A stretch of DNA of 64,000 nucleotides from Lactifluus volemus. Its lineage: Eukaryota; Basidiomycota; Agaricomycetes; Russulales; Russulaceae. The DNA is taken from positions 62,001 through 126,000 of the forward strand of contig WTXI01000001.1 in NCBI GenBank assembly GCA_022376515.1. The letters run 5' to 3'. Shown here in pieces: positions 16,416-56,312 of this stretch. The position numbers were made by a program, and so were the translations under genes. The notes beneath the pieces were generated by a model. It did no database searches, was not told the DNA's origin, and saw only the letters and a program-made list of their open reading frames with translations. Each line of letters starts with the position of its first letter. The first letter of the stretch is position 1.

Positions 16416-16587
16416 CATCAGGAAAACCCATTTGGCCTTAAACTGTATTAGATGCTCCTTAAAGCTTACTTAAGATGTTGGTAATTAGATCCTCAACTTA
16501 CCAACATTGAGGATCTAATTACCAACATCTTAAGTAAGCTTTAAGGAGCATCTAATACAGTTTAAGGCCAAATGGGTTTTCCTGATG
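16416..16587. mobile_element. 172-bp foldback element with CATCAGGAAAA ends
   Basis: This is an almost perfect palindrome: CATCAGGAAAACCCATTTGG at the left is mirrored at the right, and the arms meet near 16500. Its termini match those of the CT-rich element at 4434-5902, so the two could use one transposase. Arm-truncated relatives lie at 30298-30412 and 46373-46512. Flanks are AA on both sides. Confidence 0.75.
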
Positions 16588-26339: not shown

Positions 26340-27951
26340 GGGTAGACGTATGTTAAGGCAGGCTTAGGCAGCTTAGCACCATTAGACTAAGCAAATTGAA
26401 ATAATTTAAGCTAATTAAGCATCACTAAGCCAATCTAATAAAATTAAGGACATAAATCACCAGTCAAAGATGCTAAGTACACAAAAATTGTCTAAGTAAA
26501 TTAAGTAAGTTACGTAAGGTGTCTGAAATTTTTGTTAAATCATGAAAATTTCGCTAAGTCGTTACAGATCATGTGTTTTTTGTTTATTCTTATTTACATG
26601 ATGTTAATTTTTGTTGCCACCCCCACCTGACATTTCCTTAAAAGGAATCATTATGCTCCATTGTTTATTCTTGTTGGCACCATGTTGATTTTTGTGCCTC
26701 ATCTTTTCTTGCTGTGTCCTTTTGTCCACTCCCTCTGTCTGTCTGCTCTGTGGCCTCTGCCGTCACCACTACTGCTGCTCCCTGTCTGGTGATGCCTCCC
26801 TGCTGCCTTCTTGCCACCATGACTGCGTCCTCCTGGTTCATTGCTGTGCAATATGTCCCCTCCTGGTTTATTGTCATGCAACGTGTCCCACTGCTACCAC
26901 CTCCGCCTCTACCTCCTCTCCTTCTCTACCTCTGCCTCTGCCTCTGTCGTGTCATCATATGCCTCCTGTTCTTGCGCCTTCCCCACCACTTTTTCCTCTT
27001 GGATCCTTTGGCACTGCGAGGGCGCTGCCTGCACTGGTGCCTTCTGCACCTCTCCCCGGTACGTTGTCATGCTGCCTGCCCCACCCCAACACATCTGACT
27101 CTTTTTTCATCACCTTCGCCTGGACTTACTATCTCCTGTGCCACTTCCACCTCCCTGTGCTTCCTGTCTCTCATACCTCCCGTGCTGCTTACACCTTCTA
27201 CATTTTCCACACCTCCTCCCACACCTCCCCTGCCTGTGCGTTTGCGTGCACTTCCTGCACCCTGCGCCTTCATGTGCTCTTCCCATGCCCTGCACTTGTG
27301 CCTGCGCTTCCCACACCCTGTGCTTGTGCTTCCCGCACCCTGTGCCATCTCCTGCATTCCTCACCTCCTTCTGCACCCTGTGTCTCCTCATGTGTTCTCA
27401 CCTCCTCCCACACCCTGCGCATTCTCTTGTGCCTCCCACACCCCTCACCTCCTCCCGCACCTCCTCCTGCACCTCTTCCCATGCCTCCACTACTGCCACC
27501 ACCACTACTGCCACCTCCCCATAGCCCTGCAGCCCCACCCATGCCACAGTGTGCCACCTGCTGTTTGTGTGAGATTGAATGTGACTTAGGTAGTGGGTAG
27601 ATGTATGTTAGCACAGATTAGTTAGTTTTTGTACCCCTAGTTTAGATAATTTCAATAAACTTGCAGTTTGAATTTTTTTTTGACTTGTGTGAACTTGTCT
27701 GCTTGTGAACATAATTTATGCCCTGCTTAACAGGCTTAAATAGCTGCTAAAGCTCTGCTTAATATGCTTAGCCTAAGCAGGTCCAGCTTAACCAATTAGA
27801 TCCTCAATGTTGACAAGCAAACTACAGAATTTCAAGCAGCTTCTAAGCAAAACATTTTTTTTTAGTAGTTGCCTGAAATCTTTGTAAGAGTTATATAAGA
27901 AAATTAAGTAAATTTTAAGGAGCCTTTAAGCTGAAACAGGTTTTCCTGATG
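26340..27951 (+). mobile_element. CT-rich TIR-type element, right end TTTTCCTGATG
   Basis: 26340-26560 and 27705-27940 are dense in TTAAGC/GCTTAA words; GCTAAGTCGTTACAG at 26555 equals the same position in the 4434-5902 copy. The CT-rich core spans about 26690-27560. The right end ACAGGTTTTCCTGATG is kept, while the left terminus is missing or diverged. The long open frames in the core (about 300 codons on plus) are compositional. Confidence 0.6.
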
Positions 27952-30297: not shown

Positions 30298-30412
30298 TTA
30301 CTTGAGTGTCTTATTGACATTGATAAGTAGATCCTTCTACTTAAAAATGTCAATAAGACACTCAAGTAAGCTTTAAGAAGTATACTTTACAGCCAGATGG
30401 GTTTTCCTGATA
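30298..30412 (+). mobile_element. Truncated foldback element with TTTTCCTGATA end
   Basis: Inverted arms TTGAGTGTCTTATTGACATT and its complement meet near 30340. The right arm continues to GCCAGATGGGTTTTCCTGAT, but the matching left arm is lost. It is a relative of the 172-bp element at 16416-16587. Confidence 0.6.
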
Positions 30413-30498: not shown

Positions 30499-31197
30499 TA
30501 CAGTACACTTTTTCATAATGCATAAGCTCGGGAGCCCCCCTCACCCTATGCATTATGAGGTATATGCATTAAGGAAAGTTGTGACATAATGTGACATCGG
30601 TGACATATGTGTGACGTTACTGTTCAGCTCGCTTGCCCGAGTTACCCCACAAGTCTTCCAACGTTGTCTGCTTCACATTCTGCAACTCCTCCCTTCTCAG
30701 CTGGGCCTGGAAGCAATGAAGGTTGTGCAACAACTCAAGGATGTGTTCCCCACCTGCCTCAAGACAGTAGTCCTCAAGTTGCTGGCAAATGTGGATGGCT
30801 CCTTGTCATCCCAGGTGAGTTCCTTTCTCCTCCCCACTGTCTGAATCTGACTTGTTGTTGTGATGGTATTGTGCAGGCAGAACAGGTGTGTACTATTTCG
30901 TAACTTCAGAGAGAGTCAGGCCATGTGGGCCATCCACAAGAGCAACAGACACAGCATGACGCGACATGGATTGACATTGCCATTGTTCGCTATTGTTTTC
31001 CCTTGTTTGGCCTTGTTGTTACTCACTCATGCCTATTGAGATTTTCATAATGCATAAATACTCCCTAGGGGCAATGCAATATGCAATATGCAAAATTTGA
31101 GCATTTTCCCTATGTCCCAAGTTGGGATCCCATGTAATGTCATGCAGTATGAGGGTTATGCATTATGAGGCCATGCATTATTAAAAAGTCTACTGTA
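30499..31197. mobile_element. TIR element with CAGTA ends and TA flanks (about 0.7 kb)
   Basis: The left end TACAGTACACTTTTTCATAA and the inverted right end TATTACAGTAGACTTTTTAA-like sequence share CAGTA(C/G)ACTTTTT(C/A)ATAATGCAT. TA flanks both ends, as for Tc1/mariner/pogo elements. Subterminal ATAATGCAT/ATGCATTAT words recur four or more times. The interior (about 30610-30900) includes an exon-like open stretch followed by a GTGAGT...TGTGCAG intron-like segment. Confidence 0.65.
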
Positions 31198-31275
31198 ATA
31201 TTAGATGTAGAGTAGGCAAAACCTGTAAAAAATGATACTATCAAGATTGACTAAAAGCCTCTAAAGGGAGTTTTA

Positions 31276-32565
31276 TAGTGATCAACAGGGGTATCTCAAA
31301 CCCCTGGGGTTTGAGGGTAGGGTAACTGTGGGGTAAGGGTAAGGGTATGTTTTCGCATACCCCAACAGACCCCTAGACCCCAGAGGTACCCCAGATGCCA
31401 TAGCAGGTGAAGACAATAGAAGAGTAACAGAGAAGATGTCTGAGGATGCAACAGGGGGGAATGTGTTGGTAGGGGCCCAGGCATACTCAGAGAAGCAATG
31501 AGAGGAGCAGGGGGAGAGGTGGTGGTGGAAATGGATGCTGTGATAAGGTGCAGTGGTGTGCATATGACAGGGAGGCAAGAAGAACAACAGAAGGGTGAAA
31601 GAGATGAGAATGGATGCTATGGCAATGTGCAGCTGCACATGCACAGCAAGAAGATGAGGTGAATAACAGGGTGGCAGAGAAGGAGGGAGTGGATGCTATG
31701 GCAATGTGTGGTAGTGTGTGCATGACAGGGAGATGAGGGGAACAGCAAGAGGGCAGAGGCAGTGGGAGTACATGTTGTGGCAAGGCACAGCAGTGTGCAT
31801 AGCAGGGAAGCGGTCAGATGAACAGGGTGATGAGGAGGCAGCAGAAATGGACACTCTTATGAGATGCAGTGGCGCACATGCAAAAGAGAGGTGGGGGAGA
31901 CAACAGCAGAGTGGACATGGCAGAAATGGACACTGTGGAGAAGCTTAGTGGCACACATGTGGCAGGGAAGTGAGAGGGGCAATAGGATGATAGATGAGGT
32001 GGGGTTGGACAATATGGCAAGACACAGTGGCACACATGCAGCAGGGAGTCAATAAGAGAAGTAAGGAGAAAGGCAGAGGCAGAAATGGATGCTATGATGA
32101 GGCATAGCAGTGCGCAGGCAGAATGGAGGTAAGATGAACAACAGGAGGGTAGATAAGGTAACAATGGATATTTTGGCAAAGTGCAGAAGTGTGCATGTAG
32201 CAGGGAAGCAAGAGAGCAGCAGGATGACAGATGAGGCAGGGTTGGATAATATGGCAAGGTGTAGTGGCATGCATGTAGCAGGGAGACAATAATGGAAGCA
32301 AGGAGACAGGCAGAGGTTGAAACAGATGCTTTAATTAGATGCAGTGGGGTGGCAGTGGCAGCAGCAGTAGGTGGAGACAATGGCACACACAGTGACACAC
32401 TTACCTCATAGAAGGCATGACCCCAACACTAACCTCCAGGTCAGGTCTGTGTACCCCTGCCTATACCTCACAAAAACCCCAACCCCAGCCTTGGGGTAAG
32501 GGTTTGCTGGGGTAAGGGTAAGGGTATCAATAAAGATACCCCAGGGTTACCCTTGTTGATCACTA
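31276..32565 (+). mobile_element. hAT-like element, copy 2 (1290 bp), left inversion junction
   Basis: The ends, GGGTA arrays and 80-bp repeat core match copy 1. It is nearly identical to copy 3 at 46836-48125 read in reverse (differences seen near 31374 and 31748). Flanks are GAGTTTTA on the left (31268-31275) and GGTGTTGG on the right (32566-32573), which is not a duplication. Each flank instead equals the reverse complement of a flank of copy 3. Confidence 0.9.
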
Positions 32566-32868
32566 GGTGTTGGTGACAGAGGCATTGATGCCAGAGATCC
32601 CAGTCCATAGGGAGAGTGGTAGATGATGAGAGGAACACAAATTGCTCTACTAGAAGTGTTTCTCCAGCCAGAAATGCAGCGTTTGAAGGAGTGTCCCACC
32701 TTTGCCTGAATGACAGTGTGTCCATCCCTGATGAAGTTGAGGGTGACCCTCACAATAGAGATAGTGAAAGAGTGATGCATTGTGATATATAGGACAGAGA
32801 ACAGATTACTGGAGAGGAAGGGAACATGGAATCAGCAATTCCATGGAGTTCTTATTGGGCTCAGATTT
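32566..32868 (-). pseudogene. Ty1/copia pol fragment (protease-integrase linker), half of a split element
   Basis: The minus strand encodes the segment around HHSFTISIV, NFIRDGHTVIQAKV, SNAAFLAGET, LPMDWDLWH and CLCHQH, matching 55540-55790 of the copia element at 52341-56307. It ends exactly at the hAT-like element; the next residues (GVKKLLSG) are found at 48140, 15.6 kb away and on the other strand. On its 5' side it joins an LTR through about 35 bp plus an internal deletion that removed gag and protease. Confidence 0.8.
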
Positions 32869-33020
32869 TGTTTTAACTGGAACTGTAAAGGGCCCTTGAG
32901 TCACAGAGGACTAAGGGGACTGCAGTGGAGAGAATGAGACTGAAGGCCCAAAACTCTGTCCACTGCAGTAAAGGCAAACTTGACTAAGCATATACTAAAT
33001 AATGAAGGCAAACAGTCACA
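32869..33020 (-). mobile_element. Ty1/copia LTR fragment
   Basis: From TGTTTTAACTGG (the LTR 3' end) to TTCTGTGACTG this matches the LTR at 52341-52583, lacking the first 35 or so bases where it abuts the Helitron relic. It is the 5' LTR of the split copia element. Confidence 0.8.
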
Positions 33021-34835
33021 GAACCATTGGCTTCACATGTAAACTCTTGAAAGAGCTTGCCAGAAAGAAAGAGGTGATTTGACTCCACCTCTATGGGGTG
33101 AATGTGAAGGCAATAGTGTATGTACTTAGCAGGAGATATGTGCCCTCTGCGTGTAGTCCCTGTGTCTGGATTAGGCTAATAATAAGGTAGGCCTAGATGC
33201 CAGCCAAGTTGGCCAGTGGGAAAAAGAAGAATGTAGTGCAAGGAAGGGTAAAGGGGGTTGGTATCATAAATGTGTAATGGAGGCTGGCCATCCCTACAGT
33301 AGAGCACAATGTCTTGAGAGTCAGTGGGCTGATCCTCAGAACCTATCAAGAGAACTGCAATCTCATTGACAGAAACATAAGGGGTCTGATAGCGGCACCA
33401 GTCAGAGGCAGGATCAAAATGAAGGGCAATTCTACATTGCTGCTCAGGTGGTAAATTTCTGGTCAATTCATATGCCTGCTTGTAGAGCTCTAACGCCATA
33501 ATGTGAGCAATAGAGCATGTCTTGAAGTGTGGATAAAGTTGTACGATCCAATTCAGTATTCCATCTGCTGGCCATATGGTGATTAAGTGCGACAGCAGGG
33601 TCGTAGATATATAGCTGAGCATAGGTAAGGGTATGAGCATTAGCACCTTCTGCAGGTAAAAGGAATTCAGCTCTGTGAATAAGCTTGCCATGAAGCCTAA
33701 AAGTGTATGGTCCTCCACCACACTAATTGATAGTATGATCTATCCTTTGACCCACAGAAGTCATGGCCAGTGCACTGTTGTAGGTGCAAATATGATGGTG
33801 AAAGGCCTTTCCAATGTCATCTTGGCTGGTTAAAAGTCAATAAAGCTCCCAAGGAGGAGTTTGACTATGCCCTGATAACAGCACATTCCAAACCTGGGAT
33901 TGGTTGCAGAAGATTTGGTTAGAGCTTCTGCCTTCCAATGTAAAGCTTTACAAAAGGGACATTGAATTGACATATCACCAAGGTCACAAACTTGTCACAC
34001 ACGATCAAAGGGTTGGCATGTAATGGGAAGAGGGTCTAGTGCAGGCATAGGTGCCATTATAGGTGGTGGGGATAGAGGAGGTGATGGTGGTGGAGGAATA
34101 ATTTATATATAAAAATGTAGATTTAGTATAAACCAACAAATTTTAAAAATTAATAAACTTACATGAAACACTTCATCAGCAAATGTTAGAGCAGGAGCAA
34201 CAGTAGGGGCAGCAGGGGCAAGAGCAGGGGCAGGGGCAAGGATAGGAGCAGGAGCAAGAACAGGAGCAGGGGCAAGAACAGGAGCAAGAGCAGGGGCAGG
34301 GGCAAGAGCAGGAAAAGGAGCAGGAGCTATCTTAATAAATATTATATTTAGTTTATGTATCAAAGAACATAAAGATGTAAAAACTCACAGGAGCAAGAGC
34401 AGGGTGTTGTGAGCATCTAGTCACTGAGAGAATGGGAGGAGCAGTTGCAAGTCAAGCAGCCAAATCAGTGGGCAAATGACGATATGTTTGGCCATCAAAG
34501 GTAATAGGGTGAGGAGGTGCAGAGGGGACTCTACATTGTTCAGGAGAACCTATAATATGTTAATTCTGTTCTTCAATATGTGCAGCTTGTTGAGAATGCT
34601 GAGGAGAGGTAAGAGGTGTTGATGGAAGAGCCAAAGGAGGGGTAGAGGGTGGTTTAGCAGCAGATTTGGGTTCTGCACTGACTGGAGGAGGGGTAGAGAA
34701 GGGATTTGGGGGCATGCTTGCTCCTGATAGAAGGAAAAGGGGGAGGGGGGAAAAGAGAAAGGGGGAAGAGCCAGAAAACCAAAGGAAAAAACCAAAAGTG
34801 GACAATCAAATCCTTACAAAAATAAGAGAAATCAG
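33020..34835 (-). pseudogene. Helitron Rep/helicase gene, N-terminal part, multi-exon relic
   Basis: Reading on the minus strand: a Pro-rich start near 34830 (PNPFSTPPPVSAEP), then PHPITFDGQTYRHLPTDLAA, an Ala-Pro repeat (34330-34190), then a Cys block (IQCPFCKALHW ... FGMCC, 33990-33860), GPYTFRLHGKLIHRAEF, AQLYIYDPAVALNHH, ELDRTTL, and the domain QCRIALHFDPASDWCRY ... VNEIAVLLIG ... DIVLYCRDGQPL ... THPLY-like NPLYPSLHYILLFPTGQLGWH. It finishes with FLSGKLFQEFTCEA, where a copia LTR cuts it. This matches the N-terminal half of fungal Helitron proteins, which replicate by rolling circle. Rep HUH and helicase motifs are missing. Introns and several frameshifts are evident. Confidence 0.75.
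34190..34330 (-). repeat. Hexamer array coding (Ala-Pro)n within the Helitron relic
   Basis: AGGGGC/AGGAGC/AAGAGC hexamers repeat over about 140 bp; the minus strand reads ALAPAPxLAPAP. It sits just upstream of a GTAAGT splice donor near 34165. Confidence 0.65.
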
Positions 34836-34849
34836 AGATAACAGCAGCA

Positions 34850-35640
34850 GTTGATAGTGGAGCATATATGAGAGGTAACTGAGTTGTGATATGAAATCAC
34901 AACTGTGGTATAAAACCACCCCACCAACTTAATCTCCCTGCACCCTGTACCCAAAAAGAGATCTGCTCCTTTCCAAGAGACTTAACAACCAGCAGACAAC
35001 CTGTGCTGAGCAGGAAAGTCAGAGAAGTAGGACTTTTCAGGGTATCACCTTGATCACCAAATTTTTTAAGAACCCAAAAGCCCACTGAAAAAAAAACCAC
35101 AGGAAGGACCACCTAAGTACCAAAAATGAGTGTTGGTAAGCAAGCAAAGTCACAGGGTAAGACACATACCTGAAATGAGGCCCCAAAAACATGTAGAGGG
35201 AAGAGGTGAGAGAAGTGGTGAAAGCAGTAAAAGCTAAGGAAATAAGATAAGATTACAATTTTTACACAGTGAAAGGAATAAAACATGCCTTTGTACAATT
35301 GGAATATGATAGCTTTGAAGAGTGAAAGGGGAACAAAAATGGTTAAGGGAGCAGAGAAAGGGGAGGGAGATGTAGAGATGAAGTTGAAGAGTTTGTGGGC
35401 TGTGTATGTGGAAAAACTTTATTGAACAACGTTGAGGACAATGCTTAGTCACATCCTCCTTCCTTTTTTGAAGAATGGAGTGGCTGGATGGCCACAGTGC
35501 ATAAGAGTTCTGGCTTACTCAGATTCTCCTTCCTTTTTCAGCTGCTAAAGCAGGAAGGGTCACTAATTAACTGCTAACCAATATACCTTTTTTGGAAATT
35601 GACTTCCTTTTTTGGCAATGGTTGTGTTTTATATTATGGA
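34850..35640. other. Stretch without recognisable gene
   Basis: No domain-bearing frame or repeat boundary was found. It lies inside the inverted block. Confidence 0.4.
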
Positions 35641-35870
35641 TTGACTAATGCACACTAAGTCAGTTCTTGAGTCATCAGAACTGACTTAGATAATTAGTGA
35701 GTAGTCTTGATTACATGTTTCTCTTGTAAGATAGTTGGCTAGCCCTCTGTACACATAAATAGGGCTCTGTGAACAAGCTAAAGCCCTAGCTTTAGCTTCA
35801 TCCAGAATCACAGATAGTTGTTATCTCACTCAGATTTCTCTCTACTGGTTTATTATTACTTCATGCCTTG
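35640..35870 (+). mobile_element. LTR fragment of the 6639-7572 family
   Basis: AAGTCAGTTCTTGAGTCATC, ATAGTTGGCTAGCCCTCTGT and ATAAATAGGGCTCTG match the minus-strand sequence of the 934-bp solo LTR, including its TATA-like box. The LTR ends are not preserved. Confidence 0.6.
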
Positions 35871-36054
35871 AACCAGGACATCTTCATGCTATCATCAGAT
35901 GTCTGTTCGCAGGTTTACAACACAATACCAGATTGGTGGTCAAAACCCATACATTTGAATCGATTATATAATCACAATTTTCAAACTGAGTGCCTGAGTG
36001 ATATAGCAAAAGTGATCTCCAACATGACAATTCTTTTTATTTCTCTAAAAAGGG

Positions 36055-36350
36055 GTTTACAGATCCTACAGGACCAGGACCAAGCCCAGAAATCACAGAT
36101 TGAGGCAGACCTCAAAGCAAACAAGCTACTGACTCAAAGTGATGAGGAATGGCTGGATGGGGAAGGCAAGCTTGTTGATAAAGAGCATGTGGTGCAAGAA
36201 CTCAAAAATGCCTCTGATTACAAATGGGCATTACAGGAACTGAACATAAGGGATCAAAGCATTGTGGAGAGGTTGCAAGTCCTTGGACTTAAAGAGGCCA
36301 AGCCATGCATGTTTGCTATCATATTTTTTTCCTTTTTCAAAGCTCACTGA
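36055..36350 (+). pseudogene. Unidentified coding fragment (acidic/helical)
   Basis: The open frame reads LQILQDQDQAQKSQIEADLK, LTQSDEEWLDGEGKLVDKEH and ALQELNIRDQSIVERL. Composition is protein-like and helical, unlike surrounding DNA. I do not recognise the family with confidence; it may be part of a transposase gene. A copia LTR begins shortly after it. Confidence 0.35.
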
Positions 36351-36372
36351 GCTATCAAACAGGTCCAGAGAT

Positions 36373-36592
36373 GTTATTTGGGCTACTGTAGTGTCAGCCC
36401 AACGCTTCTGTGACTATTTACCTTCCTTATTTAGTATATGCTTAGTCAGGTTTGCCTTTACTGCAGTGGACGGAGTTTTGGGGCCTTCAGTCTTATTCTT
36501 TCTTTATTTAGTATATGCTTAGGCAGGTTTGCCTTTACTACAGTGGACGGAGTGTTGGGGCCTTCAGGCTCATTCTCTCCACTGCAGGTCAT
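36373..36592 (+). mobile_element. Ty1/copia LTR with internal duplication
   Basis: It begins TGTTATTTGGGCTACTGTAG as in the other copia LTRs, then repeats a segment of about 80 bp (TTTAGTATATGCTTAG...GGGGCCTTCAG) twice. It ends at CTGCAGGTCA without the usual 3' part. Confidence 0.7.
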
Positions 36593-36599
36593 AACAATC

Positions 36600-38605
36600 T
36601 TGCCAAAACCAGGAGCCCCTAGTAATAGTGTGGGGGTTCTGTAATAAAATCAAGATTGAGGTCCTCCCAAATGTGGTATCAATCCTGATCATGAGCCAGA
36701 GCTCTCCAGAAGCTCCACAACACTGTCTGTCATCAAAGGTTTCTGGAATGGTATTTCCTGTGACTGCCACTCCCACCAATGTAATTCCTTCTCTATTTTC
36801 TTGCTCCCACCTCCACATTGACAATGTGTGCAGAATTCTTCAGTTCTTCAACCTCTCTTTTCACTGTTACTTCAGATATATTATCTGCAAAGAGAAATTG
36901 GGCTTCATCCCCCTTGCACACCTCAAGACTCATCTTTTCCATTTGGGCAGCTCCAAAAAGGCAAATGCTGGCCAGAGAAATGTGAAGTTATTTAATACTG
37001 TTATAGACCACATCAGTTCAACCTTCCAAATCCCAAAGAATCAAACAGCTAACATATCATCCATTGATACCAGATAATGGCTGTCACAATGTACCATTTG
37101 GTGTGCCTATACCATTACTGGGCTTGGGTATGGATGCTCATAGAGGCCACCAAGAATACCTCTCTTTAGCATTCTACAAGACTAATATCAGCTTGCACAC
37201 AATGCTTGTTGCATCAGTGTGCTTCTGGTCCTTAAACCTTGTTAACCAGCCCTCACTTAGACTGAGCCACTTATCCATCAGAATTTCTGTCAAGTCCACA
37301 AATTTCATCCACTTTTGCTGCAAGACTTTACCTATAAGAATAATGCTATCAAGCAATGCTTTTGAGAATAAGGCAACTTTGACAAGCCATGGGTGATCTT
37401 TTTGTTTGAACTGAAGCTGTGAAGGGCCCTTGAGTCACAGAGGACCAAGGGGACTGCAGTGGAGAGAATGAGACTGTATTGACCAAAGACAATGATAACA
37501 ACTGACCTGCAGTGGAGAGAATGAGACTGAAGTCCCCAGAACTCCGTCCACTGCAGTAAAGGCAAGCCTGACTAAGCATATACTAAATAAGGGAGGCAAA
37601 CAGTCAAAGAAGCGTTGGACTGACACTACAGTAGCCCAAATAACACTTTTAGCACCTGCAAAGATGTCATGGATAGTTTCTCATTGCTTGATGTAATTCC
37701 CTTTGGGCTTGATTGCACTTGTGATTTCATGAGCACTATGTGTTTCAGGCTGGGGTTCTCACTAATCGTGAGCAAAGAGGGATTCCATGTTGGAGGGAGG
37801 GCCATGTGCACTAAGTGCAGTGAAGGAGAATAGAAAAGCGCCATAATGAGGAGAGAGGGCTGTTCTTGTGTCATGGGAGACAACAGACCATGAGCAACAT
37901 TGAACACAGAGAGGTGGGCAGCATGGGCATCCATGCCACATGTCATCAGTGAGGTGTGGAATTCTTGGTTGAGATGGGCAGCATTGCAGTCATTGAGGCA
38001 TCGCATACAGAGGGCTCAGTCTTCTGGGTGGGAAAGGTGTCGATGGCCTTGAGGGGGTGTGTGGAGAAGGGATACTTGGGGTCATAGGTGGTGAGTGAGC
38101 ATTGGAGGCCACCATGGATTTGGAGGATGAGGGTTGCAGTGGTGTGAAGCCAGATGGGGCAGGGGATTCTTTCTTGGGAAGGAGTAGAGAATCTGTGGCT
38201 AAAGAACTCTCTGAGGCATTCGACAGCAGCTTGTGTGACTCTACCATTCAATATGGGGTTGAAGAATTCAGGAGGAGGGGTGGGTAGGAGGTCTATATTG
38301 TGGAAGGTTGAAGGATCCCTGGTAATGAGGTTGATGAGTTGAAGGCTGGGAGGGGGGCAGGAACGGGGATGGTTGGGATGTTGGGGATGTAGGCCCCAGG
38401 AAGAGGGGGGGTCCTGAGGGAGAGGGAGAATGGACTGCATTGTCCATTTGAGCAGAGGTGGGAGTAACTCGGAACTGGGATGGGGGGGCAGACAAGAGCA
38501 GGAGAGAAGGGAATTGTTGTCAGTAGAGGTTGAAAGGGGCAAGAGTGAAGTTGGGTCGCAAGAATACCAGGCAGGTTCTAACTAGGGATGGTGGTGGTAA
38601 GAGGT
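36600..38605 (-). pseudogene. Unidentified retroposon-like element, coding relics, split by a copia solo LTR
   Basis: On the minus strand the element opens with CTTGACCTCTTACCACCACC, the same leader as the zinc-finger retroposons, followed by a Pro/Ser-rich frame of about 198 codons (38542-37946; VTQAAVECLREFFSHRF, TYDPKYPFSTHPLKAID). Beyond the solo LTR a readable stretch (DHPWLVKVALFSKALLDS, GKVLQQKWMKFVDLTEILM) continues to about 37174. Neither part matches a domain I know. The shared leader suggests a sister retroposon family with a different protein. Confidence 0.4.
37403..37645 (-). mobile_element. Ty1/copia solo LTR (243 bp), TSD CTTTT
   Basis: Minus-strand TGTTATTTGGGC...TTCAAACA is flanked by CTTTT at 37398-37402 and 37646-37650. 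Its length equals the 3' LTR at 52341-52583. Confidence 0.85.
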
Positions 38606-38892
38606 CAAGGAGCTGTGTGTCTCATGTCTTTGGCCTCTTCAAGAACCTCACCACAGTCTTTTCCAATAATCAATTAGTGATTGCCCTCACACATGACCAC
38701 CAATACCATGCCTGCACCAAGCACATCAATGTGCACTACCACTGGGTCCAGTGAGTGGTTGAGCAAGGCACTATCAAGCTTGTTTATTGTCTAACTGACA
38801 ACATAGTTGCTAATGCACTGACAAAAGCACTTCTATCACCCAAGGTCAAGCATTTTACTACAGGCCTAGGGCTATGTGCAAAATGAGGAGAA
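38606..38892 (+). pseudogene. Ty1/copia family 2, RNase H C-terminus
   Basis: The frame reads VFSNNQLVIALTHDHQYHA, TKHINVHYHWV, GTIKLVYC and NALTKALLSPKVKHF, the standard end of copia pol. A TGA at 38752-38754 breaks it where Trp/Arg is expected. It is followed by an AATGAGGAGAAG purine tract and the LTR start, as expected for a 3' end. The upstream part of pol is absent. Confidence 0.75.
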
Positions 38893-39235
38893 GTGTTGAG
38901 ATTGGGATTGGAAGATGACAATCACAATATGTTTATTACCTTTAGAATTTGGACTATTTTAGCACATTGGCTAGCTAGGCACTAGTGTAGCATTCTTGTA
39001 TCCACAGATGGACTATCCTGCCATTATCCCCTTTAGTACATTTGTTTGTCTGGCTATTAGGGCCTTATATACCTTCTTTAGTAGTCCATAGGCCCCTCAG
39101 TTCTCGTGCTGACAGCACACAAGTGATACTGAGGTAAGATAATCATTATTATCTAGTTATACACATACTTACCTAAAGTAGATACTATTATTGTCCTTTA
39201 GGACAATCCCACTCACTATTTTAACTATAATGAGT
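38893..39235 (+). mobile_element. Ty1/copia family 2, 3' LTR (end uncertain)
   Basis: TGTTGAGATTGGGATTGG follows the purine tract. It holds a TATATA-like box near 39068 and a CTCAGTTCTCGTGCTGAC block. The 3' boundary cannot be fixed, and the sequence runs into TTTTCCTGATG at 39235-39245. Confidence 0.5.
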
Positions 39236-39248
39236 TTTCCTGATGTGA

Positions 39249-39680
39249 CTGATTTAGAGGCCCAAACAGCAAAGCTACAGGAGCATATTGTAGAGATTAT
39301 GGCCCAACATGATGCTGCAGAGGTTCATGCAGTATTCATGTAGCATAAAAATGCTGTTTTGAAGTATCAATTGAATCACTAAGCATAGAAGAAAGATAGA
39401 CATGGCTGTCAAATCCAAACATCTTCACAGGTTTTTTAGTTTCAAAGAACAAGACCAAACTTCAAGACCTTGCAACTGCACTCAATTTGTTAATAGAGAG
39501 GATAAAGATAGATCTGACTTCAAGGATCAATGCCTATTTTGATGAGAATCTGGATCTAAAAGTCTACAAGTGCTTTATTGGTTTGTTTGGCTGACATGGG
39601 CAGAAACAACCAGCACCAATTGATAATAATGTCATGTCAACATTATCTGACACCATTGCACCTTCTTCACGACACTGATG
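39249..39680 (+). pseudogene. pogo-like transposase C-terminus: coiled coil plus SAP-like tail
   Basis: The first exon reads DLEAQTAKLQEHIVEIMAQ and HKNAVLKYQLN (coiled coil, with stops). After an intron-like ...TTTTTTAG boundary at 39439 comes SKNKTKLQDLATALNL, RINAYFDENLDLK and FIGLFG, a SAP-like helix-turn-helix signature. The same tail type follows the pogo DDE domain at 51185-51598, so this is interpreted as the C-terminal exons of such a gene. No DDE part is present here. Confidence 0.5.
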
Positions 39681-39689
39681 ACTTGACAC

Positions 39690-40395
39690 TGTTACTAATG
39701 CCCCTCTCTTAACATCCCAGGCACTGAATACACTAGATCCTCTCAGAGAAATGACCTACACCCTTTTTAGATAGTTTTACTGTATTTCTAAGGCCTCTTA
39801 TGTGTTTCACAAGGGTGCAGTCTCATTTGAGAACTGAGCATGTCCACTTATATGGTTTCTCATATTCTCTGTCATTTTACTTTACTCCACTCAAATATAG
39901 TTACCTCTGGGCAATAAAGTCTGGCTGCATAAAAAGAAGTTGCTGGCAGAAGCAGTTGAAGTGATCTGGAGGGCACCCAGGCTTGGGGTATTATACAAGG
40001 AGCCCGTTCAGGGGCCAGAGGCCACGCTTCTTGATTATTACCTTCATGCCTTTGAACCACCCAGGCATGGTGGTGAAATTACTCCCCAGAGTACTGGTGA
40101 GTTTGAGAGACAGAGAGTGCCAGAAGAAATAAAAGGGATGAGATATTTGCTTGGGAGCAACCCAAGCTTTCTGCTGGGGATTTCTCCCCTACATTCTGTG
40201 TCCTTAAGTACATGAGTGGCAGTAACTACCTATGGAACTAAAAAAAAACAATTTAAAACTGGAATAGTACCCAATATGTCCAATTGGCCAACATTGGTCA
40301 AATTCAAGGCTAGCCACAATGCCAACCTTACAGTAGGATGGTCATCTGAAAAATAAAATGATTGCACATTGCCATTGCCTATCATACCAGAGCAC
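39690..40395. other. Stretch without recognisable gene
   Basis: A 91-codon frame at 39940-40215 has no domain that I recognise. It is otherwise AT-rich relic sequence. Confidence 0.4.
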
Positions 40396-40397
40396 AT

Positions 40398-40661
40398 TCA
40401 TGGCCTACCTGGGTGATAAGTCCAGCCTCTTTTAGATTCTAGAAAACAAATGAGCCATGCATGTGAAAAATCAATGGGATACACACCTTTGATTATTAGC
40501 CATGCAGATAATGTATCTGGGGCTTGTTTCTGGTGAGATGGTGCATTGTCAAAAAGAAACAAACCCTGTGTGTTTCCATTTGTCTTGCAATCAAAAATGT
40601 TGATGGCGAGAAAGATTGCTGAAAGTAAGCAATCATCTCCTGCTTGCACATGATTGGACAC
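40398..40661 (-). pseudogene. DDE-type transposase fragment
   Basis: GLFLFDNAPSHQKQAPDTLSA carries the second catalytic Asp block (FDNAPSH) seen in a repetitive agaricomycete transposase-like protein family. The remainder is missing. About 85 codons are open. The superfamily is not determined. Confidence 0.45.
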
Positions 40662-41075
40662 CTAGAACAAATTCTAGGTACAGGAACGAAATTGTTTCAA
40701 TTTGAACAAGGAAATACGTTGATCTTCTATCTCCCAGGGGATCACTTTGCCTTTCATTCACAAGGCTGGACAGGAATAACGCATGGGTCTTTGATTATAA
40801 TCTGGGGCACAGAACAAGATGACCAAGATATAAAGGTCATTCCCAGAGAAGAAGACAACCTCACACCAGAACAAAAAGGAAAAATCAGATTCCTGAATGA
40901 CAGAAGACAGAGTCATCAACTCTACCAGAAACCAACCATCTACCAATACTACAGGCAGGAGATAAACCCAAAGAGCAGGGTCTTATGTGAAATTATCAAC
41001 CACCAGTGGCATGAAATTTACTGGGCAAACAGTGAGTACTGGTCAGACCCCATAAGGGACATGGGAAGTGTATGA
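40640..41075 (+). pseudogene. Ty3/gypsy gag fragment
   Basis: The frame IGHLEQILGTGTKLFQFEQG, YLPGDHFAFHSQGWTGI, RRQSHQLYQKP and HEIYWANSEYWSDP is collinear with 59170-59570 of the gypsy element. It keeps open the segment around 40800-40890 that is frameshifted in that element. It is a 5' gag piece only. Confidence 0.75.
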
Positions 41076-41099
41076 TATACAAGAAGTATAGTGCTGGGG

Positions 41100-42330
41100 T
41101 GGTCTGTTTGTATTACCTGTGTTATGTGGGAAAATGGCCCAGAACTAGGGTAGGGAGGATCTATTTGCACACACTTTCTATTGTAATGTAACAGAATTTA
41201 CATCAGAAAAGCTTGCAATGAGGGCACTGAAGGATTTAATAAAGTAAGAGCATATGGGGTGCCATTGAATCACATGTACCTTCTGTGCCTGAGTATGATC
41301 CTGCTGCCTACTTAATCTTCTCAATCTCTATGACCTCTAGGGTAATGGCTGCAGCTTACTTCTACCAATAAACCTAAATAAAACATGGTAACCCAGAATT
41401 TTATTGATCTTATTAGGGGGGGCATGAATTGGATTGAACCTGTTACTGCAACCCCTTCTAGAGGGAAGACTTGTGACTGGCATTGGCTAGGATGGCTACC
41501 AGCAGGGACTGAGTGAGATACAAGTGTATATATGTGGGTGTGTTGTTTTTGAGTGAACAGTATACATGGTTAGTAACCTTCTCACACATATGTTCTAGAT
41601 AGAATTTCACTGTGTTATCACACATGCACAATATCTATCACTTAATTCTACTAAGTTGCAATGCATTCATGTAAAGTGGCCTTAGTGCATGTCTTATGAT
41701 AAATAAAACTACTTTACACTTAAGATAAATATATTTGAGTAAAGTAATAAGTAACTAATCCTAAGCAGTCTAAATTAACAGGCTAGCTCAAGGCTATGTC
41801 AGATATTACCTGATATGTTAATAAGTGTCAGACATCCATGAGCAGTCTCTCAGACCAGCTCAAGCCTGAATTGGGCAAGAGCCAGTAAAAACATAGACAT
41901 GAGGGCATGGCCAGTCTGATTTTGAGTTATCCTTATCACAATCAATAGTTCTGCACCACAGCCTAAGAAAGAGGTTTGGTAGATTGAGCAAAATAAGGTG
42001 TATAATGTTGATCACAAAACACCTAAGAGGTGCCAGAGACCAATATACTTGGTTTACAAATCCCAGTCTCCCTGCACTTTCATTTGTAATGTGTGTCATT
42101 ACAGCTCTGCAGCAATCTACACAAACTATCCTGGTACAGATTAGGCAAGGGTCCTGTAAGCCCATAAATATTGGTGTCATCATGATTGCAACCCAGAGAC
42201 ATTATAGTCCAGTAGTTTTAGCATTACAGGGTTGTAGTATGGTCTATTGTCCTTATTTTTAAGATTACAATAGAGATAATAGCCAAAAGCTCTGTGATGT
42301 CTAACTTGTCTATAAAGCTAGAATGGTCCT
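41100..42330. other. Stretch without recognisable gene
   Basis: No supported exon or repeat; AT-rich. Confidence 0.4.
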
Positions 42331-42334
42331 GGGT

Positions 42335-42510
42335 AGTATTTTAAGGTTCAGTTTGGTTCAGTTTTTTAACCTCTAAGAGAGTTAACTAGAACTGTAACTG
42401 GTCTAGACCAATATCCCAAGTCGGTTGAACTGTAACTAAACTGATTAGAACTGGTTCTAATCAGTTTAGTCTACTGGTTTAGACCAGTTTCAACCAGTTT
42501 TTAGCTCTAA
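42335..42510. repeat. Motif patch of AACTGGTT / GAACCAGTT words
   Basis: GGTTCAGTTTGG, GAACTGTAACTGG, GAACTGGTTCTAATCAGTTT and ACCAGTTTCAACCAGTTTTT alternate in orientation over 175 bp. Architecture is like the GGGTA and AACCTGAACC patches but with a third word. Confidence 0.5.
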
Positions 42511-42519
42511 ATAATTATA

Positions 42520-43075
42520 TTATATAGTAGATAACATTATTTACATTCACACCTTGCAAGCAAGGGCTTACAGCAGTGGCTCAGAATGGAGTGTGACAAT
42601 ATATACAGATAAGTTCCAACTTGGAAGCTTTTTAAGGTACTTTGAAATTATTTTTTCTCATGTCAAGCTTGATAGGGCCTGAGTGCTAAGCCATCACCTG
42701 CTGACCCACCAAAACAGGTAATATTAAATAGAAACAAGCCATATTTGGCATGGTGCCCCCTGACACAAATTGAAATACTATTGCAGCTATGTCACAGTTC
42801 CTGAGTGCACCACAGTGCAGTGATTGGAACTTGCACATAAAAGGTCCAATAATGTCATTGGTGAGAATCAATGTCTCACTTCAAACCATATTGCTTCTCA
42901 ACAATTTGCCAGTATCCCTATGGTAGCCACCACAACTGTCAGGTTAATCTTCATGACAGCCCCCTAGAGTTGACAACATCTGAAGAATCAGTGTTCCCAC
43001 CTTGTCTTAAAACACCATTGACACCTAAGGCAAATACACTATCCCCTAAAGCTCCTAAACCCCTTTCTCCCTATT
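42520..43075. other. Stretch without recognisable gene
   Basis: The hairpin CCTTGCAAGCAAGG at 42552-42565 resembles the repeat end at 29405 and 46360. Nothing else is supported. Confidence 0.35.
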
Positions 43076-43078
43076 ATT

Positions 43079-43513
43079 TGTTATTTGGGCTACTGTAGTG
43101 TCAGCCCAACGCTTCTGTGACTGTTTGCCTTCTTTATTTAGTATATGCTTAGTCAGGTTTGCCTTTACTGTAGTGGATGGAGTTTTGGGGCCTTCAGTCT
43201 CATTCTCTTCACTGTAGGTCAGTTATTATCATTGTTTTTGGTCAATATAGTCTTATTAGGGCATTTCACAGTAGCCATTATTTAGCTCATTAATTTGGCC
43301 ATTCTCATGATTCCCACCAGTTTTCTTTACTTTTTTCCTCCATTCTCATCTTTCTATTGCCATCATTAATGATAATCAAAGAAAAAGGTGAGAAAAACTG
43401 GTAGAAATCATGAGAATGGCCAAATTAATGAGCTAAATAATGGCTACTGTGAACGACCCTATTCTCTCCACTGCAGTTCCCTTGGTCCTCTGTGACTCAA
43501 GAGCCCTTCACAG
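43079..43513 (+). mobile_element. Ty1/copia LTR carrying a foldback MITE
   Basis: TGTTATTTGGGCTACTGTAG to CCCTTCACAGTTCC matches the copia LTR in order, interrupted at 43257-43461. The last 12 or so bases of the LTR are lost. Confidence 0.8.
43257..43461. mobile_element. 205-bp foldback MITE inside a copia LTR
   Basis: Inverted arms of about 65 bp (CACAGTAGCCATTATTTAGC, TCATTAATTTGGCCATTCTC) face each other around a short centre. Terminal TAGGG/CCCTA. The interrupted LTR gives the empty site AGTCTCATTCTCTCC; the target duplication is at most 1-3 bp and not resolved. Confidence 0.75.
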
Positions 43514-43519
43514 TTCCTG

Positions 43520-44660
43520 CATTCTAGCTAGAGAATAGCTGGCTATTTGATTAGCTTGGCTCAGTGCTTTGTGACATGTGTCCTATGGCATAGCTCAGCT
43601 AATAGCTTGGCCAGGCTACATGGGCTACCACAATACTACTGTAGTTTAGGTTGACACTTGTTATGGGCAGAGTTACAGTTCCTAAATAGTGCTTTTTCAT
43701 TACTACTGGATGATCATTTGATGTAAGTTATCCTCCCCTTACTAACCAGCTGTTCCTAATTGCTTTGCAGTGACAAAAATGGTCACTCTATCCCTGCCCC
43801 TGGTCACAGTGTGTTGGATGCAGACCATGGCATCATGCTGTCTGCCCCAACGCCTCCTGCTCCTCCGCTGGATCCACTGGCACTGCGGGGCAGTCTACAG
43901 TATCACGCTGATGCCTTCTGCGCCTCTTCTTGGTACGTTGTCACACTGCCACCCTGCCCCAACGTGTCCTAACTTTTTTTTTGCCTTCTCCACTGCCTGG
44001 ACCACCACCTCCTGTGCCACTTCTGCCTCCTGTGCTTCCGTGCCCCTTGCACCACCTGCGCACCTTGCACCTCCTGCACGCCTTGCACCTCCTGCGTGCC
44101 TTGCACCTCTCACACCTCCTCCTATGCTTCCTGCGCCCCATGCCTCCTGCGTCCCTTGCCCCACAGTGGGTATTGGGTTGATGCTTAGCAGACCCCAGAG
44201 GCTAGCCCAGAGGTGCTACGATTTTTTTAGCACCTCCGTCGTCGCCTCGCATCCACCCACTGGGACAGAGGAGACCCCAACTGGTTTGTGATCTCTGTGC
44301 CTTGCTTCCTGTGATGGACAGTGCACGCTCCTCACTTTCAGTTGTGTCAGTGCATTAGCACTTTGAGAAATGCCTTGAGGTGCTTTTAGATTGCCATGTC
44401 TTGTGCTTGCAGATGAGAGAGGATAATAAATGACCCAGAGTGGCTAGAGGAGTGTCCTTGCCTGGATTCAGTGAGCTGCAAGGGCACACCAACATTACAT
44501 AATGAGTTTGAGTTTGAGACTAAGCTGACAAGCTGAATGCTCTAAGCTGCGGCTTAGCCTTGGCTTAAGGTTCTGGCTAAGGTGGCTCGGCTAAATCTGG
44601 TAAGCCGATGCCACAGCTAAATGCAGCTCAGCTCTGGCTAGCTCTGGCTCGTTGAGCCCC
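43520..44660 (+). repeat. CT-rich element relative with GCTAAG/AGCTTGG flanks
   Basis: The core 43760-44170 (CCCCAACGCCTCCTGCTCC, GGATCCACTGGCACTGC, TTGGTACGTTGTCACACTGC) matches the cores at 4800-5600 and 26930-27500. Both flanks (43525-43620 and 44510-44655) are full of GGCTAAG/AGCTCAGCT words. Terminal repeats were not identified. The open frames in the core are compositional. Confidence 0.55.
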
Positions 44661-44757
44661 ACAACACTATGTGTATACACTCCCTTATACAGGTGAACAA
44701 TAAAAAAGCACAAGACATAATAACTGGTAAGAACCCTTGCTGAAATGATAAAACGAC

Positions 44758-45303
44758 TTGACTGACATTGATTATTTCCCTAGCCCGCTCACTTCAACTC
44801 ATAATAACGTCTGCTTTGCTTTAACTCTTTTGTTGCTCATGGATCCATCCATCTCCTCGAATGCTTCTTCTTCCCATTCACTTACTCTTGATCACATCTC
44901 TGTTTCTTGCCCCAAAACCGAAGACTTGTCAATTTGTGCCATTGATCTTGTAAACACTCTGAGGGAAAACTCTCTTGACCTTGCCAACAATGAAATATTG
45001 TCACAGCTTGACTGGGTCCAGTTGGGCCAATTGCCTACATTCATGTTGGTCATCAATGACAGAGATGATGAAGATGAACTGTACAAACCCGCAATATTAG
45101 AATTTGTTGGCAAAATCAGTCCTGCAAATTTCTGGCTATATGCCTGTGGAGGATGGAATGGAGATAGAGGACTGATGAATTCTTGGTCAAAACCATGCCC
45201 CTTTAAAAAGGCCAGGTCAAGAGCTCATGTTTATCACTCATTCTTCCCATTCTATGCCAGATTCTGGACCTCAACCATCGATAATCTCAAGAAGATTGTC
45301 TAG
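44758..45303 (+). pseudogene. Unidentified coding fragment
   Basis: The frame of 181 codons includes MDPSISSNASSSHS, LDWVQLGQLPTFMLVI, EFVGKISPANFWLYACGGWN and FYARFWTSTIDNLKKI. It reads like genuine protein and continues past the stop in frame (LAVACVNSSREKTIDYNVVY), suggesting a decayed gene, likely of transposon origin. I do not recognise the family. Confidence 0.35.
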
Positions 45304-45309
45304 CTGGCA

Positions 45310-46120
45310 GTTGCCTGTGTGAACAGCTCACGTGAAAAGACAATTGATTACAATGTTGTTTATGGCAACAAAGTTAGGATCCAACACTCTGTTTTCTTTG
45401 TGAGTAAAACTTTATCTCATAAAGACTATGAGAAACTAATAAATAAACTGCTGCGCTAAACAGAAAAACAAAGATTCAATCCTGACATCTGCTAAAACAG
45501 GTGGTGATTTGGACAACAACAACAACAAATTGAGCTCAATGCAACCCAATACAGGTACATTGTAAAACCATTGTTGTGTACTATGTTCTCACAAACTAAC
45601 TCAGAAATGGAAACCATCCTGGACCCCCATTTTGCAACTGAAAATATGCCCTGCAAATACGAGGTCGCTGCAAGAGAACTTGAATGCATTGTTGAAGAGG
45701 GCAAATACTCTTTCAACCCTCTTGTCGCATTAGACAACAGATGAAGACTAATTTTGCCCACAATGTACAAACACAAGTTGTCCAGTGCGACGGTCACCAT
45801 TCAGGCGTGGCCGCCACTGTCTCGTTGATGGCCTATTGATGGCCTTGCAATTGGTACAAACATGGCATTGACATGATAGCTGATGATAATAGGTTGACTT
45901 TACAAAGGAAGGTGTGGCTTTAGCAGCTGTGATGTGTATGCAAAAAAGACACAGGTCAATGAGATAATGAGATAACGGAGTAACAATTGATCAGGCCCAG
46001 TAAGTGCTGAAGCATCAAGCTACAACGAGTAGGGCGTGACCCATTAGGGTTATGCCCCACTGTGACAGTGTGGTCCTGTCAGGACACACTGTTGGAAAAA
46101 AACATAAAGACTCATTTGCA
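45310..46120. other. Stretch without recognisable gene
   Basis: Short readable frames (45580-45740) may be the tail of the previous fragment. Nothing else is supported. Confidence 0.35.
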
Positions 46121-46129
46121 TAAAGGAGA

Positions 46130-46370
46130 AAAACATACCAGAGTGACACTAACACATCACAAAACATACCTGTTAAAGTCAACACAAATGTTTTTTTCTG
46201 CACAGAACGAGCAGGAAAGGCAGGATAACAGTCACAAGAAAAGCCGGAAAGAGCAAAAAGAGCCATCTGGTGGCCAAAAAAGGCAAAAAAATTATGTAAA
46301 GTGATTACAAATAACAGTAAGCAGCGGGCATGATTACGCCTGCATAGATACCTTGCAAGCAAGGTAACGA
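46130..46370. repeat. Dispersed repeat ending in hairpin TACCTTGCAAGCAAGGTA
   Basis: Shares CACAAAACATACCTGTTAA and GATTACGCCTGCAT...TACCTTGCAAGCAAGGTA with 29190-29430. The hairpin is a perfect 8-bp stem with an AA loop. It is fused to a truncated foldback element at 46371. Confidence 0.55.
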
Positions 46371-46372
46371 TA

Positions 46373-46512
46373 TTAGATGCTCTTTAAAGCTTACTTGAGT
46401 GTCTTATTAACATTGGTAAGTAGATTTTTCTACTTACCAATGTTAATAAGACACTCAAGTAAGCTTTAAAGAGTATCTAATACAATTTAGGGCCAGATGG
46501 GTTTTCCTGATG
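46373..46512 (+). mobile_element. Truncated foldback element with TTTTCCTGATG end
   Basis: Arms TTAGATGCTCTTTAAAGCTT and its complement pair through ACTTGAGTGTCTTATTAACA. The right end goes on to GGGCCAGATGGGTTTTCCTG, but the left 32 bp are missing. Confidence 0.65.
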
Positions 46513-46835
46513 CAAAGGACCTCAAGCTAGAGGATATAGCTAACCTCTGGTGCTATATTTAAGAAAGATACCAAGGTGGCCAACTTGTTGGTTTTTCTTT
46601 TAAAGTAACATTTTTAAAAGTTAATCAAAGGACCTAATGCTAAGCTTTCAAAGTATGTCAGTGCCAAAGGTAATGTCATTAATATTTCTTATCCTTACTA
46701 CCTTATATGAGTTTACAGATAAAAGAACATTTATATCTCTCTCTTTACTAGGTGTACTACACTGGCTCATGGTCATGTGTAAGGTACATAGTGAGATGCT
46801 TGTTCTCAAATAGATGTTTTTTAGTGCTAAAACTC

Positions 46836-48125
46836 TAGTGATCAACAAGGGTAACCCTGGGGTATCTTTATTGATACCCTTACCCTTACCCCAGCAAACC
46901 CTTACCCCAAGGCTGGGGTTGGGGTTTTTGTGAGGTATAGGCAGGGGTACACAGACCTGACCTGGAGGTTAGTGTTGGGGTCATGCCTTCTATGAGGTAA
47001 GTGTGTCACTGTGTGTGCCATTGTCTCCACCTACTGCTGCTGCCACTGCCACCCCACTGCATCTAATTAAAGCATCTGTTTCAACCTCTGCCTGTCTCCT
47101 TGCTTCCATTATTGTCTCCCTGCTACATGCATGCCACTACACCTTGCCATATTATCCAACCCTGCCTCATCTGTCATCCTGCTGCTCTCTTGCTTCCCTG
47201 CTACATGCACACTTCTGCACTTTGCCAAAATATCCATTGTTACCTTATCTACCCTCCTGTTGTTCATCTTACCTCCATTCTGCCTGCGCACTGCTATGCC
47301 TCATCATAGCATCCATTTCTGCCTCTGCCTTTCTCCTTACTTCTCTTATTGACTCCCTGCTGCATGTGTGCCACTGTGTCTTGCCATATTGTCCAACCCC
47401 ACCTCATCTATCATCCTATTGCCCCTCTCACTTCCCTGCCACATGTGTGCCACTAAGCTTCTCCACAGTGTCCATTTCTGCCATGTCCACTCTGCTGTTG
47501 TCTCCCCCACCTCTCTTTTGCATGTGCGCCACTGCATCTCATAAGAGTGTCCATTTCTGCTGCCTCCTCATCACCCTGTTCATCTGACCGCTTCCCTGCT
47601 ATGCACACTGCTGTGCCTTGCCACAACATGTACTCCCACTGCCTCTGCCCTCCTGCTGTTCCCCTCATCTCCCTGTCATGCACACACTACCACACATTGC
47701 CATAGCATCCACTCCCTCCTTCTCTGCCACCCTGTTATTCACCTCATCTTCTTGCTGTGCATGTGCAGCTGCACATTGCCATAGCATCCATTCTCATCTC
47801 TTTCACCCTTCTGTTGTTCTTCTTGCCTCCCTGTCATATGCACACCACTGCACCTTATCACAGCATCCATTTCCACCACCACCTCTCCCCCTGCTCCTCT
47901 CATTGCTTCTCTGAGTATGCCTGGGCCCCTACCAACACATTCCCCCCTGTTGCATCCTCAGACATCTTCTCTGTTACTCTTCTATTGTCTTCACCTGCTA
48001 TGGCATCTGGGGTACCTCTGGGGTCTGGGGGTCTGTTGGGGTATGCGAAAACATACCCTTACCCTTACCCCACAGTTACCCTACCCTCAAACCCCAGGGG
48101 TTTGAGATACCCCTGTTGATCACTA
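46836..48125 (-). mobile_element. hAT-like element, copy 3 (1290 bp), right inversion junction
   Basis: Same length, ends and core as copies 1 and 2, reversed relative to them. Flanks are TAAAACTC (46828-46835) and CCAACACC (48126-48133), again not a duplication. TAAAACTC is the reverse complement of the left flank of copy 2, and CCAACACC that of its right flank. Confidence 0.9.
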
Positions 48126-48690
48126 CCAACACCTTGTTGGGGTCAAGAAGCTGCTCTCAGGTGACCTGGTGACTGGATTCAAGCTTGATTCTCAGGCTGA
48201 TCCTGATCTGGTATGTGAAGCCTGTAAAGCTGGCAAGATGCACTCAGATCCATTCCCTCCATTCACCTCTAGAGCATCTAGACCCCTCCAACTTGTCCAC
48301 AGTGATCTCCATGGGCCTGTGAAGGTGTCAACTCATCGGGAATTTCACTACTGGGTTGCTTTCATTGATGACTTCTCTCGCTTTAAGGCTGTCTATCTGT
48401 TGAAGTGCAAATCTGAGACATTCTCTGCCTTCAAATAGTTCAAAGCATGGGCAGAGAACATCACAGGACAGAGGATTGGGACGCTTAGAGATGACAAGGG
48501 AGGGGAGTACATGTCTAAGGAGTTTGACAACTTCTGCATTGATCATGGCATCCAGAGGCAGCACACACCTAGGAATCGTCCACAGCAGAATGGGGTCACT
48601 GAGAGGGCTAATAGGACGATGGAGGAGAGCATCATCTGTATGCTTCATGAGTCTGGCATGCCACCATCTTTCTGGGGATCTCCCTTTAAT
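48126..48690 (+). pseudogene. Ty1/copia integrase fragment, other half of the split element
   Basis: The frame resumes with GVKKLLSGDLVTGFKLDSQ, the CEACKAGK zinc-binding pair, HSDLHGPV, FIDDFSRFKAVYLLKCKSE, a TAG near 48438, DDKGGEYMS and RPQQNGVTERANRTM, so the integrase HHCC and DDE landmarks are in order. It breaks off at MPPSFWG. It continues the sequence left off at 32566 on the minus strand. Confidence 0.85.
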
Positions 48691-52340: not shown

Positions 52341-52583
52341 TGTTTTAACTGGAGCTGTGAAGGGCCCTTGAGTCACAGAGGACCAAGGGGACTGCAGTGG
52401 AGAGAATGAGACTGTATTGACCAAAGACAATGATAACAACTGACCTGTAGTGGAGAGAATGAGACTGAAGGCCCCAAAACTCCGTCCACTGCAGTAAAGG
52501 CAAACCTGACTAAGCATATACTAAATAAGGAAGGCAAATAGTCACAGAAGCGTTGGGCTGACACTACAGTAGCCCAAATAACA
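52341..52583 (-). mobile_element. Ty1/copia 3' LTR (243 bp)
   Basis: On the minus strand the purine tract TGGGGGAG is followed directly by TGTTATTTGGGC; the LTR ends CCAGTTAAAACA at 52341. The outer flank is CCACC (52336-52340). Confidence 0.85.
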
Positions 52584-52608
52584 CTCCCCCATGTCAGTAC
52601 AACAGGTT

Positions 52609-56227: not shown

Positions 56228-56307
56228 ACCTGACTAAGCATATACTAAATAAGGAAGGCAAATAGTCACAGAACCGTTGGGCTGACACTACAGTAGCCCA
56301 AATAACA
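56160..56307 (-). mobile_element. Ty1/copia 5' LTR, truncated and fused to pol
   Basis: Minus-strand TGTTATTTGGGC...CACTGCAGGTTAGTTGTTATC stops in mid-LTR and continues into LKEKLTRQFG of the protease-proximal coding region. The outer flank is GTTAT, which does not match CCACC at the other end. Confidence 0.8.
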
Positions 56308-56312
56308 GTTAT

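Follow-up and report, generated by a model that had tools for sequence, protein, structure and literature searches.

The window analysed here, 64,000 nucleotides of a Lactifluus volemus contig (contig C1, 62001-126000, in the 62.4-Mb, 628-contig assembly that we also searched), contains three copies of one 1,290-bp element. Copy 1 (1237-2526) and copy 2 (31276-32565) lie on the plus strand and copy 3 (46836-48125) lies on the minus strand. Between copy 2 and the reverse complement of copy 3 there are only 2 differences in 1,290 positions; copy 1 has 54 relative to copy 2 and 52 relative to copy 3. The element ends in 18-bp terminal inverted repeats (94%) that start with TAGTG, and its interior consists of about ten degenerate repeats of approximately 79 bp with no long coding frame. 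The longest frame, 204 amino acids, runs across these degenerate tandem repeats, and no transposase was recognised from frame lengths.

Terminal inverted repeats of hAT transposons are short and begin with the consensus C/TAGNG. The element has short ends of this type (TAGTG...) and is flanked by 8-bp duplications; 8 of 20 complete copies have these in exact form, in addition to the exchanged pair described below. Both features agree with the label 'hAT-like' given to it in the preliminary description, and, as judged from sequence, it fits a non-autonomous hAT-like member. A possible autonomous relative lies on another contig (L085, G000:C13:471500-475650). This stretch carries hAT transposase-like frames with a PF05699 hAT dimerisation domain about 550 bp inside an end, TAGTGAACAACACGGGTA, that has 20 of 22 terminal bases in common with the element, which makes it a candidate on sequence similarity; a second end was not found within the 4.15 kb fetched. 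PF05699 has at least 103 matches in the genome.

The flanks of copies 2 and 3 match each other rather than forming duplications around each element. Copy 1, which serves as a control, has a normal CCCCCCCT/CCCCCCCT duplication on its two sides. Reading the plus strand, copy 2 is preceded by GAGTTTTA (31268-31275) and followed by GGTGTTGG (32566-32573), and copy 3 is preceded by TAAAACTC (46828-46835) and followed by CCAACACC (48126-48133). The two left flanks are exact reverse complements, as are the two right flanks (8/8 in both pairs); the mate of 31268-31275 is therefore at 46828-46835, and that of 32566-32573 is at 48126-48133. Flipping the 14,270-bp block between the elements (32566-46835) gives each of them a perfect duplication. 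The block is thus marked by exchanged duplications at both ends, and at one end by a paralogous empty site as well. On re-reading, all three 1,290-bp copies were found where the preliminary description had placed them; the flanks of the three copies, their reverse complementarity across copies 2 and 3, the near-identity and inverted orientation of these two copies (2/1,290 differences) and the normal duplication around copy 1 were likewise exact, which confirms the sequence pattern that it had reported.

Among 52 distinct family ends (18-mer ends with at most one mismatch, one hAT-coding relative's end being left out), nine pairs of exact 8-bp mates were found. Seven of them fall within single elements, and the only two pairs that link different elements are those of the copy 2/copy 3 exchange. 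Random 8-mers drawn from the window matched by chance in 8 of 200,000 draws. From this rate, a double match for the named pair would be expected by chance with a probability of about 1e-9, and over all pairs of 20 copies with a probability below 1e-6. Homologous, oppositely oriented copies are present at both breakpoints, as expected for an inversion mediated by transposable elements, and their duplications are exchanged between the copies, as expected if that inversion arose by ectopic recombination.

The sequence on either side of the right-hand join belongs to a copia-like fragment. Its upstream part (32566-32827, minus strand) lies inside the inverted block, and its downstream part (48126-48678, plus strand) lies outside it. 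An uninterrupted copia paralog at 54992-55797 (minus strand) provides an empty-site control for the right-hand target. Its site at 55537-55544 reads CGTGTTGG, with one change relative to GGTGTTGG; on the minus strand it reads CCAACACG, where the duplication has CCAACACC. We restored the right-hand site in silico by reversing the first bases of the block and joining them to the sequence from 48134. The restored join aligned continuously to the paralog, from 55797 to 54992, over 807 nt at 95.4% identity with one gap. When the two copia halves were aligned separately, they shared 8 nt of the paralog (55538-55545), one base off 55537-55544. Across the genome, 20 of the 34 matches listed crossed the restored join, including 16 that extend more than 150 nt to each side; the in-window paralog is one of these 16. 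The other 14 comprised two matches to the window's own flanks and 12 that stop before the join.

Translation of the two copia flanks, each on its own, gave the same order. The block-side flank corresponds to residues 146-232 of the paralog frame, spread over two frames and thus frameshifted; the outside flank corresponds to residues 231-414 and contains one stop, so that the halves overlap at residues 231-232. The earlier statement that the copia sequence is collinear only after the flip therefore held (residues 146-232, then 231-414). What was interrupted is a truncated copia piece, roughly 0.8 kb long, rather than a whole element.

Unlike the right-hand target, which is present once in paralogs, the left-hand target has no spanning paralog. 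A search of the assembly with the restored left-hand flanks joined returned seven matches: two to the window itself, three to repeats at 97% and two weak ones. The three repeats, which contain the left side of the site, stop 78 bp before the insertion. The two weak matches (82%, 83 nt) start 4 nt past the duplication, and the sequence upstream of them is unrelated. None of the seven matches spans the restored join, and none is a second, allelic copy of the joined flanks. The left-hand join rests on its 8 bp, together with the fact that one inversion needs both ends. The sequence preceding this site, 30499-31197, is a repeat of 699 bp whose inverted ends are 25 bp long (92%) and which stops 78 bp before copy 2; it is also found at three other loci (L063-L065), where it is 91-98% alike over the aligned parts.

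The rest of the window is rich in other repeats. Inside the inverted block, 33176-33739 (minus strand) encodes a Helitron-like protein fragment. Its 37 matches include relatives named as Lactarius, Galerina and Pholiota, which, as far as a mobile element can indicate, points to an agaricomycete fungus; some of its relatives carry PF14214. Among 10 frames from the block, none had a Pfam domain that scored above the cut-off. A repeat of approximately 90-245 bp occurs six times across the window in both orientations (32866-33037, 36372-36591, 37400-37647, 43079-43257, 52341-52585 and 56156-56310), its copies being about 87-98% alike over the parts that they share. Related palindromic, hairpin-like repeats are found at 16416-16587, 30298-30383 and 46371-46482, and one of them has perfectly complementary arms of 81 nt that are 10 nt apart.

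One sequence of events could have produced this arrangement. A non-autonomous hAT-like element would first have inserted twice, at sites 14.3 kb from each other and facing opposite ways, with one insertion falling in the truncated copia-like fragment and an 8-bp target duplication arising at each. The inverted copies would then have undergone a homologous crossover, whether within a single chromatid or between sister chromatids, which would have reversed the intervening block and swapped the inner halves of both duplications. We put the probability that such a crossover is the origin of the exchanged flanks at roughly 85%. It explains all of the features with no leftover, and a true inversion is the most likely state of the locus; the crossover itself, its timing and its biological (rather than assembly) origin are what we infer. 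Inversion by ectopic recombination, as the preliminary description had proposed, is supported by the exchanged duplications at both ends and by two intact, near-identical, inverted elements. The continuity after the flip that ectopic recombination predicts was found at one end, the right-hand one.

Copies 2 and 3 differ from each other by 0.2%, and each differs by at least 4.0% (nearest, 4.0-4.3%) from the other 18 copies compared. At a spacing of 14 kb, a difference of 0.2% could reflect recent local transposition, or else gene conversion acting on the two copies. At both positions that differ between copies 2 and 3, copies 1 and 4 (the latter described below) agree with copy 3; at the second position, copy 2 shares its base with L014 and L015, both of them distant copies. 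With only two substitutions, and with copies 1 and 4 like copy 3 at both, the crossover point cannot be placed and chimerism cannot be scored.

Four other explanations can be weighed against a crossover. The first is a mis-orientation of the block by the assembler between the near-identical inverted repeats, which would make the exchanged duplications an artefact. Inverted repeats 1,290 bp long and only two mismatches apart are well known to confuse assembly, and such an artefact would be expected to yield identical letters. Two observations argue the other way. There is no N in the 64-kb window or in the 281,067 bases fetched (from overlapping loci), which counts mildly against a mis-assembly. 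The contig is 2.3 Mb long and resolves four copies that are 96-100% alike within 74 kb; together with the absence of N, this weakly suggests that the reads were longer than the element. We regard a mis-oriented block as unlikely.

Transposases can also rearrange DNA by using the ends of two elements, an aberrant process (alternative-ends transposition) known from maize Ac/Ds. The ends of the elements here are intact, and the part of a study of Atlantic cod that was available (PMC12368964) names hAT elements among the drivers of inversions, with maize as one example. Alternative-ends transposition predicts a hybrid element at a new site with that site's own duplication, according to the available text of a Drosophila study (PMC2775673), whereas both old duplications here are fully accounted for with no remainder; we consider this process very improbable. 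Mobilisation of the two elements and the block together as a single composite transposon would explain why the block is bracketed by two inverted copies, but GAGTTTTA and CCAACACC, the flanks furthest out, are not a match, and the copia fragment continued by the inner edge of the block has its other half beyond the block, which leaves this explanation with almost no credibility. Both kinds of transposition were rejected on the flank pattern. Breakage with end joining would not be expected to respect the element ends.

To place the exchange in the context of its family, we compared the flanks of 20 complete copies, a minimum for the genome; both ends of each were found in the 30 loci fetched for 58 matches (40 of 77 candidates scored). 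Eight of the 20 have exact duplications, one has a duplication with one mismatch and one has a duplication with two; two are the exchanged pair, and the remaining eight have unrelated flanks (copy 4, also called L004, and L006, L010, L012, L014, L015, L017 and L019). The flanks of L017 share TACTTCA out of register and, judging by these letters, this copy may represent an insertion whose ends slipped. L014 and L015 have flanks in common and were therefore counted as one event. Thus, the eight unmatched copies represent at most seven independent events, and perhaps six. A further locus, L008/L086 (G000:C334:1450307-1453915), has 3.6 kb between the element's two ends and unmatched flanks, TTGGGTGT and CTATACCA; this stretch was left out of the 20 complete copies.

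The copies with exact duplications served as controls. For five of the eight (copy 1, L007, L009, L013 and L018), a paralog of the insertion site was present in the fetched sequence, and all five sites were continuous with an overlap approximating the duplication. The paralog of L013 has only about 70% identity, and the empty-site paralog of copy 1 (approximately 11599-11660) has a left side of just about 60 nt. L009 is an independent insertion into the copia family to which the right-hand site belongs. No paralog near the insertion was found for L005, L011 and L016 in a filtered comparison with the fetched sequence.

For the unmatched copies, the flanks of copy 4 and L006 were searched genome-wide, and the other six were compared with fetched sequence. 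Copy 4 (G000:C1:135696-136985) lies outside the window, about 26 kb beyond copy 3, differs from copy 1 at 10 of 1,290 positions and is flanked by GCGGTGAA and GTCCCCTC. On its left side, 39 of the 40 matches listed (40 of 154 candidates scored) were paralogs that reach within 2-3 bases of the element, and the two left-flank paralogs that were fetched (on contigs C390 and C598) continue into one common sequence. Two fetched right-flank paralogs (C622 and C24) have another common sequence upstream, which is also present in the window at 26417-26826. Neither continuation was found across copy 4, and two different repeats are thus interrupted there. On this sequence evidence, copy 4 looks like the product of another crossover. 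No convincing partner ends for copy 4 were found, with 5 and 2 matches at up to three mismatches versus 3 and 1 for reversed controls. The nearest, C168:94088 (2 mismatches), is the left end of L010, and by eye its further flank does not resemble the continuation that a partner should have. The left side of L006 is also an interrupted repeat, shown with one paralog, and its right side is uninformative. Interrupted repeats were therefore shown on both sides only for copy 4 and on one side for L006.

It is conceivable, although we would not favour it, that the family is a recurrent substrate for recombination, in which case about half of the complete copies would be crossover products, the pair in the window would be the one recoverable reciprocal exchange and copy 4 would record a second event whose partner has been lost. 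Frequent recombination of this family is a reading of the flanks, not a result.

The inversion resembles several known systems. For inversion 2z3 of Drosophila buzzatii, exchanged duplications of the transposon Galileo were taken as marks of ectopic recombination, and the portion of that report consulted (PMC2775673) describes the same arrangement as here: opposite copies at both breakpoints, with short duplications exchanged. Galileo belongs to the P superfamily and makes 7-bp duplications, whereas the element here is hAT-like with 8-bp duplications and the block is 14.27 kb. For 2z3, again in that portion, non-inverted chromosomes were sequenced and each target was found once, whereas we have paralogous empty sites only; Galileo copies were also reported to be chimeric, a property that cannot be scored in copies 2 and 3. 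Similarly, target duplications exchanged between BuT5 copies were presented as evidence of ectopic recombination for inversion 2s of Drosophila mojavensis, which differs from the present case, according to the sections of the report at hand, in being a fixed chromosomal inversion with 9-bp duplications rather than 8-bp ones (PMC3355041).

Other parallels come from hAT elements. The basidiomycete Marasmius oreades has active autonomous and non-autonomous hAT families, and one inversion has been reported there at two MarorhAT-10 copies, in which one copy was turned around and the DNA separating them was lost; the accessible part of the report does not mention exchanged duplications (PMC9674265). 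In Atlantic cod, hAT-derived MITEs at inversion breakpoints have been proposed as a substrate for ectopic recombination, in the extract seen (PMC12368964), a role like that of the non-autonomous hAT-like elements here; the cod MITEs differ in forming tandem accumulations in a vertebrate, and neither 'TSD' nor 'target site duplication' occurs in the text (PMC12368964). No fungal inversion with exchanged duplications was found in the literature searched by titles and abstract openings, and we claim no priority.

The locus is most likely a new and clear instance of a process already known: inversion by ectopic recombination between transposon copies. Comparison of strains is the usual way to infer small inversions in repeat-rich DNA. 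This one is legible in a single sequence because the 8-bp duplications act as bar codes. Applied over one family, the same 8-bp flank test would be an inexpensive way to gauge the frequency of recombination between transposon copies, with no relative's genome required.
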